Shown here piece after piece: positions 5,934 to 36,661 of a stretch of 36,661 bases of DNA. The notes beneath the pieces were generated by a model. It made no database searches, was not told the DNA's origin, and saw nothing but the letters and a program-made list of their open reading frames with translations. Within the stretch, counting starts at the first letter, position 1, and every line of letters begins with the position of its first letter. Source of the DNA: Planctomycetota bacterium (GTDB lineage: Bacteria > Planctomycetota > Phycisphaerae > WQYP01); NCBI GenBank assembly GCA_021785435.1, contig JAJYFE010000031.1:1-36661 (forward strand), read 5' to 3'. The position numbers and the translations under genes were made by a program.

Positions 5934-6146
5934 TTAGGTCGTGTTGACGAATGTTCGGGGCATAATAATGGCAGCGACCCGCTGAACGATAGCCATGAAG
6001 GTGCAGGCCAGTTTGTCGTAACGTGTGGCGATGGCTCGGAACGGTTTGAACCGGCCCGCCAGTCGCGCCACGCCATTGCAACCCCGATAAAGTTTCCGAT
6101 CCTGGGGAATAAATCGGCGACGATTGCTGGGGCTGGGGATGACAGC
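5934..6146 (-). pseudogene. IS5-family transposase remnant (C-terminal about 70 residues)
   Basis: On the minus strand the last about 70 codons before TAA read AVIPSPSNRRR, DRKLYRGCNGVARL, then RAIATRYDKLACTFMAIVQR. This is the unmistakable C-terminal end of IS5-type DDE transposases (AVIP... DRxLYRxR... F+RIATRYDKxAxxFxAxVxxA). The catalytic N-terminal part is missing: upstream codons in this frame are unrelated and no start belongs to the family. It is therefore a decayed, immobile fragment. It lies just downstream of the hpnH unit and 110 bp past the glycosidase-like gene. The outer edge at 5933-5936 reads TTAG, which fits the YTAR target preference of IS5 elements, but the other end of the element is gone. 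The gap 5823-5933 holds nothing else I recognise. Confidence 0.8.
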
Positions 6147-6286
6147 GTGGATACCGGCACGATGATGGAAACGTTGAAAAGCGTCAACCCGGCCTGATTG
6201 CGTCGCCCTCTTCGGGTCTGGGCTGTGTCCTGGTTGCGGCTGTGCGCCGGGCTGGGCCTTCTGTGGTTCTGCGGCGCCAATCCGGG

Positions 6287-6574
6287 TTAGTCGCGGTTGG
6301 CGCGTCTCTTCAGCCAATTTTGATAACTTTTTCCGGCGGCCGCGTCTTGGCCGGTGAACTCAAGTTGCGCAATATCGGCATACCACAGCGTAATCTTCCG
6401 ATCCCCCGTCCGCGGTAACAAGCGCAGGAAGCAATTGGCCGGATCGGCAGTGGGCGCGTGCCGGTCGAAAACATAGCCCTCCAGGACCTGACCCTGGCGC
6501 GTACGAATAGTGACATCACCGCGGAAATTGAACGCTTTTTCCACCGTCGCGAAGATGTCGTCACCGGCAGGCAT
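6287..6574 (-). CDS. Small conserved-looking protein downstream of hpnH
   Basis: A 95-residue protein that I do not recognise by family name. It is rich in short beta-strand-like stretches: FNFRGDVTIRTRQGQVLEGYVFDR, then CFLRLLPRTGDRKITLWYADIAQLEF, then a short basic helical tail NWLKRRANRD. The pattern (a G-rich strand pair with QGQVLEGYVFD) recalls an Sm/SH3-like small barrel; that is inference. ATG at 6574 is preceded at good spacing by GGAG (7 bases), which favours it over the GTG at 6580. It follows hpnH on the same strand after about 40 bp and is probably co-transcribed with it, so a role linked to hopanoid or membrane-lipid metabolism is possible but unproven. Confidence 0.65.
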   Translation of the reverse strand: MPAGDDIFATVEKAFNFRGDVTIRTRQGQVLEGYVFDRHAPTADPANCFLRLLPRTGDRKITLWYADIAQLEFTGQDAAAGKSYQNWLKRRANRD

Positions 6575-11946: not shown

Positions 11947-12040
11947 GGTGCGTTGCCAAACGATAAATTTCCGATTGGAAAAAGAGCCCCGGCCTCGCCA
12001 CCGAACCCGAAGCACCGGCCTTCAGGCCGGTGAGCCCGCG
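11947..12040 (+). repeat. Degenerate copy of the MITE-like element (family A)
   Basis: Reads TGCGTTGCCAAACGATAAAT, then AAAGAGCCCCGGC, ACCGAACCCGAAGCACCGG and CCTTCAGGCCGGTGA. These match the left half of the elements at 19477, 29668 and 33966. The left end lacks the TAG of the other copies and I find no matching right end, so this is a truncated or decayed copy. It starts about 25 bp after the rny stop. Confidence 0.7.
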
Positions 12041-19476: not shown

Positions 19477-19653
19477 GTAGTGCGTTGTCAAACGATAACT
19501 TTCGGGTTGGTGAAAGAGCCCCGGACGTGCCATCGAACCCGAAGCACCGGGCTTCAGGTCGCCAGCGGCGACTCGCCCTAATGTTTCCTGGCGGCGACCC
19601 GGTGCATGGCGGCGGACCGGGTACCCGAAAGTCAAGCGGTGACAACGCCGTAG
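19477..19653 (+). repeat. MITE-like element with GTAG target duplication (family A)
   Basis: Bounded on both sides by GTAG (19477-19480 and 19650-19653). Inside these, the left end TGCGTTGTCA and the right end TGACAACGCC are near-perfect inverted repeats. Internal sequence (AAACGATAACTTTCGGGTTG, AAAGAGCCCCGGA, AACCCGAAGCACCGGGCTTC) matches the copies at 29668 and 33966. No transposase is encoded, so it would be non-autonomous. The gap 19654-19844 holds only GC-rich short repeats (CGTAGCCCCAAACGCGGGGC). Confidence 0.75.
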
Positions 19654-29520: not shown

Positions 29521-29538
29521 GCCGATAGGGGCATAGGC
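29521..29538. repeat. Family E short hairpin repeat (degenerate)
   Basis: GCCGATAGGGGCATAGGC, related to the two perfect copies GCCGATGGGGGCATCGGC at 33187 and 33216. Confidence 0.5.
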
Positions 29539-29567
29539 GACTACTACACCCCGGGCTTACCGCCCTG

Positions 29568-29616
29568 TAGTAGGTCGAAGATCCGCCCTGGCGGACACAC
29601 TCCAATGTGCCGTCGT
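29568..29616 (+). repeat. Family B repeat, next to a MITE-like element
   Basis: TAGTAGGTCGAAGATCCGCC, CTGGCGGACACACTCC, then ATGTGCCGTCG. Followed at 29617-29667 by further partial units (CGCCGTCGTCGCGCCGTCC and CACACCGCAATGTGCCGTCG), i.e. a small decayed array that leads straight into the family A element. Confidence 0.65.
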
Positions 29617-29671
29617 GGCGCCGTCGTCGCGCCGTCCAAGCCACACCGCAATGTGCCGTCGTCGCGCCGTC

Positions 29672-29838
29672 CTAGTGCGTTGTCAAACGATAAATTTCGG
29701 GTTGGAGAAAGAGCCCCGTACCCGGCACCGAACCCGCAGCACCGGGCTTCAGACCGGTGAGCTTCAGGTTACCCGCGGCGACCCGGTGAACGGCTTCCGG
29801 CCGCGATACCCGAAGGCCAAGTGGTGACAAAGCACTAG
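29672..29838 (+). repeat. MITE-like element with CTAG target duplication (family A)
   Basis: 167 bp bounded by CTAG (29672-29675 and 29835-29838). The ends TGCGTTGTCA and TGACAAAGCA are inverted repeats with one mismatch. The interior shares AAACGATAAATTTCGGGTTG, AAAGAGCCCCG, GCACCGGGCTTCAG and GCGATACCCGAAGGC with the copies at 19477 and 33966. It encodes nothing. Confidence 0.75.
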
Positions 29839-30038
29839 CCCCGTCCTAGCCACACCCCGCTGTGCCGTAAGTCCCGCCTTCTCGCCGGCCCAAACGTGCC
29901 GTGCCCCCCTCCTGACAGGTGGATCAGAGCGCTACGCCGATCGGCAAGGGTCGGTTCCTGGTTGACCGCACGCGGCGGAACGGTAAGATGGCGTGTCACC
30001 AGCGGCGCGGCAGCCCGCGCGGCCGTCGGGAGGAAGCC
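29839..30038. other. Gap upstream of the beta-propeller gene, with an empty MITE site
   Basis: At 29843-29860 the sequence GTCCTAGCCACACCCCGC equals the DNA flanking the element at 33966 with the element removed. The remainder holds the leader of the beta-propeller gene, including GGAGG shortly before its ATG. Confidence 0.5.
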
Positions 30039-32920: not shown

Positions 32921-33076
32921 GGCAGCCGCGCGGATCGCAATCCCGCGGCCGTTGAACGACGATTCACCACGAAAGATATGACGGGCAGCCGCGCGGATCG
33001 CAATCCCGCAGCCGTTGAACGACGATTCACCACGAAAGATATCATGGGCAGCCGCGCGGATCGCAATCCCGCGCCC
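32921..33076. repeat. Tandem array of a 63-bp hairpin repeat (2.5 units)
   Basis: Units start at 32921, 32984 and 33047, an exact 63-bp period. Each unit has a hairpin half, GGCAGCCGCGCGGATCGCAA then TCCCGCGGCCG (stem GCCGCG.GGAT/ATCC.GCGGC with a CGCA loop), and a linear half TTGAACGACGATTCACCACG then AAAGATAT. The third unit is cut off after its hairpin. The same unit recurs at 36546-36661 and, hairpin only, at 12209. Confidence 0.85.
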
Positions 33077-33186: not shown

Positions 33187-33233
33187 GCCGATGGGGGCAT
33201 CGGCCCTACATAATGGCCGATGGGGGCATCGGC
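33187..33233. repeat. Family E hairpin repeat, two perfect copies
   Basis: GCCGATGGGGGCATCGGC occurs at 33187-33204 and 33216-33233; each is a 7-bp inverted repeat with a GGGG loop. A degenerate copy lies at 29521. Confidence 0.65.
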
Positions 33234-33244
33234 GGCTACCACAC

Positions 33245-33851: not shown

Positions 33852-33905
33852 CGTTCCGATTCTCCTTGATACCTGATTATACCCTATTCCGCTCCGCCGC
33901 AGCAC

Positions 33906-33956
33906 TGTAGTAGGTCGAAGATCCGCCCCGGCGGACACACTCCGATGTGCCGTCGT
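33906..33956 (+). repeat. Family B repeat next to a MITE-like element
   Basis: CTGTAGTAGGTCGAAGATCC, GCCCCGGCGGACACACTCCG, then ATGTGCCGTCG. It leads into the family A element 10 bp later, in the same order and orientation as at 29568-29838. Confidence 0.7.
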
Positions 33957-33965
33957 CGCGCCGTC

Positions 33966-34102
33966 CTAGTGCGTTGTCAAACGATAAATTTCGGGTTGGA
34001 GAAAGAGCCCCGGACCCGCCACCAAATCCCAAGCACCGGCCTTCAGGCCGGTGAACGGCGGCGGCCGCGATACCCGAAGGCTAAGTGCTGACAAAGCACT
34101 AG
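33966..34102 (+). repeat. MITE-like element with CTAG target duplication (family A), shortest copy
   Basis: 137 bp bounded by CTAG (33966-33969 and 34099-34102). The ends TGCGTTGTCA and TGACAAAGCA are inverted repeats. It matches the copy at 29672 closely but lacks about 30 bp of its interior. The flanks GTC and CCACACCCCGC, joined by one CTAG, occur uninterrupted at 29843-29860. The short gap 34103-34155 to the pseudopilin holds nothing else. Confidence 0.8.
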
Positions 34103-35709: not shown

Positions 35710-36560
35710 TATAAATTCACCGTAAACACGAACACATAAACCAATGGGCTGGCGGTTTGGCCCGTCGCGGGGGGCGCGTAGAGCAGCGTATCGGCCGGAG
35801 GGGTCGTGGTGCTGGCCGGCGCGGGGAGATCACTGCGCCACAACTGCGCGGGGTTGCCATTGGTGGGCGTGACAACAATCTTCCGGAACACCGACCCGGT
35901 CGTCAGGTCGACGCCGCTCGAGCCGATCGGAAAAGCGGCGTCGGCCAAGACTCCCGCGTAGAGCTGGGGCGCCAGAGTCGGGCCGGCTGGGGTGGCACCC
36001 GTGGTGTTGTAAACGTTGCTCATATCCCCCTTGTTGAACACGAAAATATACACATCGTAAGCCGTGCCGGAACTCGAGCTGGCGCTGGCGCCGGCGGGTG
36101 CGGGGACGATCGCCGCGGTCCAATAGTACATGGCGGCGGGAGGCGTTGGGCTGCTGGTGGTGTAGAACGCGCCGGCGGAATTCGAGACAAAGGGCTGGGG
36201 AACCTGCAACACGTTGTAGTAGCTGTACTGCTGCGGCGACGTACCGGGGATTGGCACGGATGTCCAGCCGACCCACGCGGCAGTTGGCGAGAAGTCCGGA
36301 ACCGGGCCGGTGGTGTTCGGCGTGGGCGCGGCCGGCGGGGCGTCGGCAAGGCTGGTGACGCTGCATTGCGTCCGAATAATGCCTGCCGCATCCTGGGCGA
36401 TGACTTCGGCGATGGTGCTGTGGGCATTCTGGGCCGTCCAATGCACGGCGATCGGGTACGCCGCGGCGATCAGGATCAGGCCCAGGCCCAGAATCGCGAT
36501 CGCCAGCAGCATTTCCACGAGGCTGAAACCGCCAACGGCATCATGGGCAGCCGCGCGCAT
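35709..36560 (-). CDS. PulI/PulJ-like pseudopilin whose start lies in a repeat
   Basis: 283 residues. The leader MRAAAHDAVGG precedes FSLVEMLLAIAILGLGLILI, a canonical prepilin cleavage site after GG with Glu at position 5. The rest is Ser/Thr/Pro/Ala-rich with strands such as YDVYIFVFNKGDM and ASPLVYVFVFTVNL. The only plausible start, ATG at 36560, falls inside a 63-bp repeat unit; other copies have G instead of C on the + strand there (ATC, not ATG, on the coding strand). No good ribosome binding site precedes it. Unless the gene begins beyond the right edge, the repeat supplied the start. It is first of a coupled pair with the next pseudopilin. Confidence 0.78.
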   Translation of the reverse strand: MRAAAHDAVGGFSLVEMLLAIAILGLGLILIAAAYPIAVHWTAQNAHSTIAEVIAQDAAGIIRTQCSVTSLADAPPAAPTPNTTGPVPDFSPTAAWVGWTSVPIPGTSPQQYSYYNVLQVPQPFVSNSAGAFYTTSSPTPPAAMYYWTAAIVPAPAGASASSSSGTAYDVYIFVFNKGDMSNVYNTTGATPAGPTLAPQLYAGVLADAAFPIGSSGVDLTTGSVFRKIVVTPTNGNPAQLWRSDLPAPASTTTPPADTLLYAPPATGQTASPLVYVFVFTVNL

Positions 36561-36661
36561 CGCAATCCCGCGGCCGTTGAGCGACGATTCACCACGAAAG
36601 ATATTATGGGCAGCCGCGCGGATCGCAATCCCGCGGCCGTTGGACGACGATTCACCACGAA
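36546..36661. repeat. Tandem 63-bp hairpin repeat, continuing past the window
   Basis: Units begin at 36546 and 36609 with the same 63-bp period and sequence as the 32921 array; the second is cut by the window end. The first unit differs from the others by GCGCATCGCA in place of GCGGATCGCA, which creates the pseudopilin start codon on the minus strand. Confidence 0.85.

Follow-up and report, generated by a model that had tools for sequence, protein, structure and literature searches.

The DNA analysed here, a window of 36,661 nucleotides forming contig C56 of a draft genome (G000; 4.4 Mb, 234 contigs, 94% complete), harbors copies of a genus-restricted MITE family that very probably derives from an insertion sequence (IS) of the IS630 family and was mobilized in trans by an IS630 transposase acting with a 4-bp stagger at CTAG-like targets. 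This is a genuine MITE family, new as a family although its kind is already known. The copies in the window and the duplications that flank them are as follows.

33970..34098, forward strand: MITE copy 1, 129 bp, intact
33966..33969, no strand: target-site duplication of copy 1, left, CTAG
34099..34102, no strand: target-site duplication of copy 1, right, CTAG
29676..29834, forward strand: MITE copy 2, 159 bp, with a longer internal hairpin segment
29672..29675, no strand: target-site duplication of copy 2, left, CTAG
29835..29838, no strand: target-site duplication of copy 2, right, CTAG
19481..19649, forward strand: MITE copy 3, 169 bp
19477..19480, no strand: target-site duplication of copy 3, left, GTAG, non-palindromic
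19650..19653, no strand: target-site duplication of copy 3, right, GTAG
11949..12033, forward strand: truncated MITE copy that has lost its right end and keeps the left end with the conserved interior; left flank GTGG

A sequence-only reading of the window had already recognized the three full copies with their 4-bp flanks, as well as a decayed fourth copy at 11947-12040, and all of these were recovered, the fourth with its left end only. It had also described common ends; these hold for the full copies, with TGCGTTGTCA as the left end, except that the 19481 copy has TGACAACGCC in place of TGACAAAGCA at its right end. As that reading stated, no transposase is encoded: the elements are gene-less, and their interior contains no recognized remnant of a transposase gene. 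Copies 97-99% identical to copy 1 are present on two other contigs of the source genome (C197 and C138).

Throughout the source genome, a single copy used as query gave 46 matches, while an 18-base left-end pattern and a 26-base right-end pattern were found at 60 and 71 places, respectively, with none for either in the control (reversed pattern for the left end). Merged, the family occupies approximately 93 places, comprising 69 two-ended elements and 24 single ends. The paired elements have a median length of 156 bp, 67 of the 69 falling between 84 and 206 bp with clusters near 129, 143, 156 and 170-173 bp, and are thus too short for a transposase gene. Ragged ends, a lack of NTAG duplications and homology running past the ends, which had been named beforehand as signs against a MITE family, were not observed family-wide in this search, which had likewise been proposed in advance. 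Every MITE hallmark examined here was found, namely short gene-less elements, terminal inverted repeats with fixed ends, target-site duplications with empty sites, and ends common to autonomous elements (in relatives).

The interior combines a conserved scaffold with a hairpin segment that varies, and the 129-bp class folds as a hairpin of nearly full length. Across 11 related sequences, five pairs were altered on both sides versus 2.6 in shuffles, although such compensated changes in so few related sequences are no proof of RNA function, since inverted repeats pair by design. A search against Rfam found no family anywhere in the window.

Perfect 4-bp duplications flank 23 of the 69 paired elements, and at least three of the four bases agree at 43. 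When right flanks were swapped among elements, a control that keeps the target preference, 5.4 perfect duplications were expected and the maximum in 5000 shuffles was 14; flanks taken 4-20 bp farther out yielded only 0-1 perfect matches, and exact duplications of 3, 5 or 6 bp were absent from the paired elements. The flanks co-vary at positions -4/+1 (z 8.3) and -1/+4 (z 4.8), the inner TA is near constant, and mutual information is significant for these two pairs alone, which are exactly those predicted by a 4-bp duplication. The earlier suggestion, drawn from the window copies, that a co-varying first base marks a true target-site duplication is therefore borne out across the genome. At -4/+1 the base pairs are C/C in 37 elements and G/G in 13, with nine mixed (C/G or G/C). 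The perfect duplications comprise nine CTAG, seven GTAG, three CCAG, two CTGG, one CTCG and one CTAC; as 14 of the 23 are non-palindromic, they are not explicable by a palindromic target. The sister species (G001) showed a similar trend, with six perfect duplications in 33 against 1.7 expected (shuffle maximum 7). In the source genome, the perfect duplication is gone from 46 of the 69 copies, and decay is the likely reason.

Empty sites were sought by comparing joined element flanks with the available genome sequences. For the element at C180:10825 (CTCG/CTCG), C105 contains a paralogue without the element, and the alignment continues across the junction with one CTCG; the element at C100:21830 (GTAG/GTAG) has several element-free paralogues, each with one GTAG, and one element of the sister species has its empty site in contig C214 of the source genome. 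For the window copies, the sister species provided no orthologous empty sites, as the matching contigs stop short of the insertion points.

The left end, exact or with one mismatch, was found in the source genome and in G001, which belongs to the same genus, as does Planctomycetota YP1.bin19, the one carrier in the named collection; it was absent from 59 other genomes of the family or class, and the left-end pattern had no match in the IMG/VR viral contigs. Judged by this end, the MITE family is restricted to one genus among the genomes searched. Several other planctomycetes show strong enrichment of the bare end with its target, TAGTGCKTTGTCA (for example 48 in G219, 29 in G022 and 29 in G215). 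Part of these matches are different MITE families, such as L239, which is approximately 125 bp long with CTAG on both sides, and others lie approximately 127 bp from contig starts, as fits the collapsed ends of multi-copy ISs. Short elements ending in the same TGCTTTGTCA and located at CTAG sites also occur in other planctomycetes (G215:C62:3057-3187, G158:C41:831-925 and contigs of G219); these are apparently independent MITE families from the same IS630 subgroup.

The contig-edge TAGTGCKTTGTCA ends encode the C-terminus of a transposase, the stop codon lying in or adjoining the inverted repeat. These tails of 37-41 residues were too short for a match in Pfam or NCBIfam, and tblastn against plasmids led to genes annotated as IS630 family transposase, the best in Methylobacter (66%). 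In G215, a PF13358 (DDE_3) match above the cut-off terminates at TGCTTTGTCACAGCTTAATGTTCGGGTA, which is identical to the MITE right-end consensus at 25 of 28 bp. Plasmid-borne IS630 elements in Methylobacter and Acaryochloris lie between CTAG sites and end in sequences of the TGC...TGTCA...GGG type. Within the genus, the sister species contains an internally deleted IS630 relic of approximately 775 bp with MITE-like ends and CTAC/CTAC flanks, showing 55% identity over residues 1-67 of ORF1 and retaining residues 1-57 and 168-229 of ORF2. The source genome has two IS630 fragments: that in C57, at the contig start, is deleted much as the G001 relic is, and that in C110 is an IS630 left end, in which CTAG and TAGTCCGTCACTCTTGAAGTTTCGGGTA are followed by the first codons of ORF1. 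The decayed copies L282 (G000:C57) and L281 (G001:C175) are both missing the middle of ORF2, approximately residues 58-167, which suggests that they may stem from one internally deleted ancestor.

The sequence-only reading had advised looking for a full IS with matching terminal repeats. Such ends do occur at IS630 elements in relatives, but the source draft assembly contained only fragments and no intact IS630 of the subgroup with MITE ends. Multi-copy ISs are frequently missing from draft assemblies, and the helper is probably an IS630 element now decayed or absent from this one. As the MITE ends are common to IS630 genes in relatives and to the relics, and IS5/IS4-type and rve loci lack them, IS630-type transposases, and not IS5, most likely moved the family. 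The rve candidates (IS481/IS3 type) were considered in view of the TG...CA ends and the CTAG target, and none of the nine PF00665 matches in two genomes had MITE ends.

We therefore envisage that the parent was an IS630-family IS of the subgroup with ends TGCTTTGTCA...TTTCGGGTA, whose transposase would recognize in trans two imperfect inverted ends of about 26-28 bp. It would excise the element and insert it into a CTAG-like target (NTAN, with C or G favored outside the TA), and repair of the 4-bp stagger would leave NTAG-type duplications. Movement by cut-and-paste is the probable mode, and the proposal of the sequence-only reading that a helper moves the elements in trans finds support, with an IS630 transposase as the putative helper.

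An IS5-type helper, as originally suggested, is very unlikely. The IS5 group too duplicates 4-bp YTAR/CTAG targets, so that the CTAG-type duplications fit it well without being specific to it, and MITEPsy1, tentatively assigned to IS5, uses CTAG or YTAA with a 4-bp duplication (PMC3189936). The source genome contains 21 loci with DDE_Tnp_1 (IS5/IS4-type) matches. The IS5-type relic placed at 5934-6146 of the window corresponds to a PF13586 (DDE_Tnp_1_2) match at 5934-6317 (E 0.0022), but its 18.9 bits lie below the cut-off of 29.2 and nothing links it to the MITEs. None of the 21 loci is enclosed by a pair of MITE ends, whereas the same ends belong to IS630 elements in relatives and to IS630 relics with a 4-bp duplication in the genus itself; an IS5 helper is thus strongly disfavored.

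In descriptions of Tc1/mariner-type transposition, strand transfer proceeds with a 2-bp stagger at TA; IS630 belongs to this superfamily, and the 4-bp duplications are a modest surprise for it. As related in PMC2170065 (citing Tenzen and Ohtsubo 1991), IS630 of Shigella sonnei favors TA inside CTAG, a preference that resembles the MITE targets, and both IS630 and ISY100 of Synechocystis duplicate TA only, in contrast to the 4 bp with co-varying outer bases found here. Alternatively, an IS630-type MITE might duplicate only TA, in the canonical way, with the outer C and G belonging to the element ends or to a CTAG target. The published behavior of IS630 and ISY100, the TA, which varies least within the flanks, and two relatives with unmatched outer bases, ATAG/CTAG in G021 and TTAG/CTAG in Isosphaeraceae EP7, agree with this. 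However, the +1 base would then belong to the element and could not follow the -4 base as it does in the counts above, and the CTCG/CTCG element and its empty site are wholly without TA. Moreover, non-palindromic 4-bp duplications flank IS630 copies themselves, GTAG/GTAG in Gloeocapsopsis and CTAA/CTAA in Deinococcus (plasmid relatives), in addition to the CTAC/CTAC of the G001 relic. A TA-only duplication is thus highly improbable for this family, and it seems not to define the IS630 subgroup, which appears to use 4 bp instead of a 2-bp stagger; the assignment to IS630 consequently rests on end identity and the relics.

We tentatively extend this, with somewhat less than even confidence, to the proposal that a widespread IS630 subgroup (planctomycetes, cyanobacteria and Deinococcus) makes a 4-bp NTAN duplication rather than that of TA, which is regarded as fixed in the IS630/Tc1/mariner superfamily, and that some 70 variously decayed MITE copies, with an exchangeable and partly co-varying internal hairpin, record that chemistry. 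Among the papers found, none states a 4-bp duplication for this subgroup, which ISfinder may already record. This testable point on IS630 chemistry is the one of wider interest, and look-alike CTAG duplications from IS5 and IS630 caution that the target site alone is insufficient for assigning a helper.

Two further features bear on the surroundings of copies 1 and 2.

33905..33966, forward strand: dispersed repeat around copy 1, target DNA outside the element, with 51 matches in the genome
29843..29860, forward strand: empty-site candidate of the sequence-only reading, 18 bases identical to the flanks of copy 1 when these are joined

The dispersed intergenic repeat (GTAGGTCGAAGATCCGCCCCGGCGGACACACTCCGATGTGCCGTCGTCGCGCCGTC) lies at 33905-33966 and 29564-29672, one match to the former spanning 29562-29625 beside copy 2, and some of its matches are paired or oppositely oriented. 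Because both copies sit inside it, 29676 and 33970 have approximately 60 bp of left flank in common. The empty site proposed at 29843-29860 does exist. As it falls within a tandem-like part of this repeat, and only 5 bp separate it from the target-site duplication of copy 2, it is weak alone and supportive only; the paralogous empty sites described above are stronger. The common flank and the strongly conserved, hairpin-rich interior would accord with segmental duplication, or with ordinary hairpin repeats between genes, as the way in which the copies spread, the CTAG flanks then being part of the repeat. This reading is scarcely credible and is refuted for the family, and could hold at most for the pair 29676/33970: outside the 4-mer, the flanks of different family members are unrelated, the 14 non-palindromic duplications differ between copies, and element-free paralogues carry a single 4-mer.

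The IS630-derived MITE family can be set beside several known systems. Its closest counterparts in ends and targets are split-ORF IS630 elements on plasmids (Methylobacter sp. YRD-M1, NZ_CP091425; Acaryochloris, NZ_CP071722), a subgroup whose named relatives are ISPna1 and ISMae29 and which has the TGC..TGTCA..GGG ends and CTAG-type sites described above, whereas the window elements, at 129-169 bp, encode nothing. MITEPsy1 of Pseudomonas syringae is similarly gene-less, at approximately 100 bp (PMC3189936), but its ends, GGAAGGTCTGAAAAAGCC, are unrelated to TGCTTTGTCA, and its proposed helper comes from another family. Correia elements and Nezha are likewise short, high-copy, gene-less bacterial MITEs with terminal inverted repeats (PMC10969869), although they occur in other hosts and are likened to the present family by description, not by sequence. 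No earlier MITE family in Planctomycetota was described in the literature searched, and the present one is a well-populated family for that phylum, with IS630 instead of IS5 as its probable helper.

Other repeats also occur in the window. Two short tandem arrays, at 32921-33072 and 36543-36661, are built from the same 63-bp unit, GGCAGCCGCGCGGATCGCAATCCCGCGGCCGTTGAACGACGATTCACCACGAAAGATAT, and the second of them runs into the contig end; intergenic palindromic repeats of the GATGGGGGCATCGGC type recur at 33187-33240 and 29522-29560.
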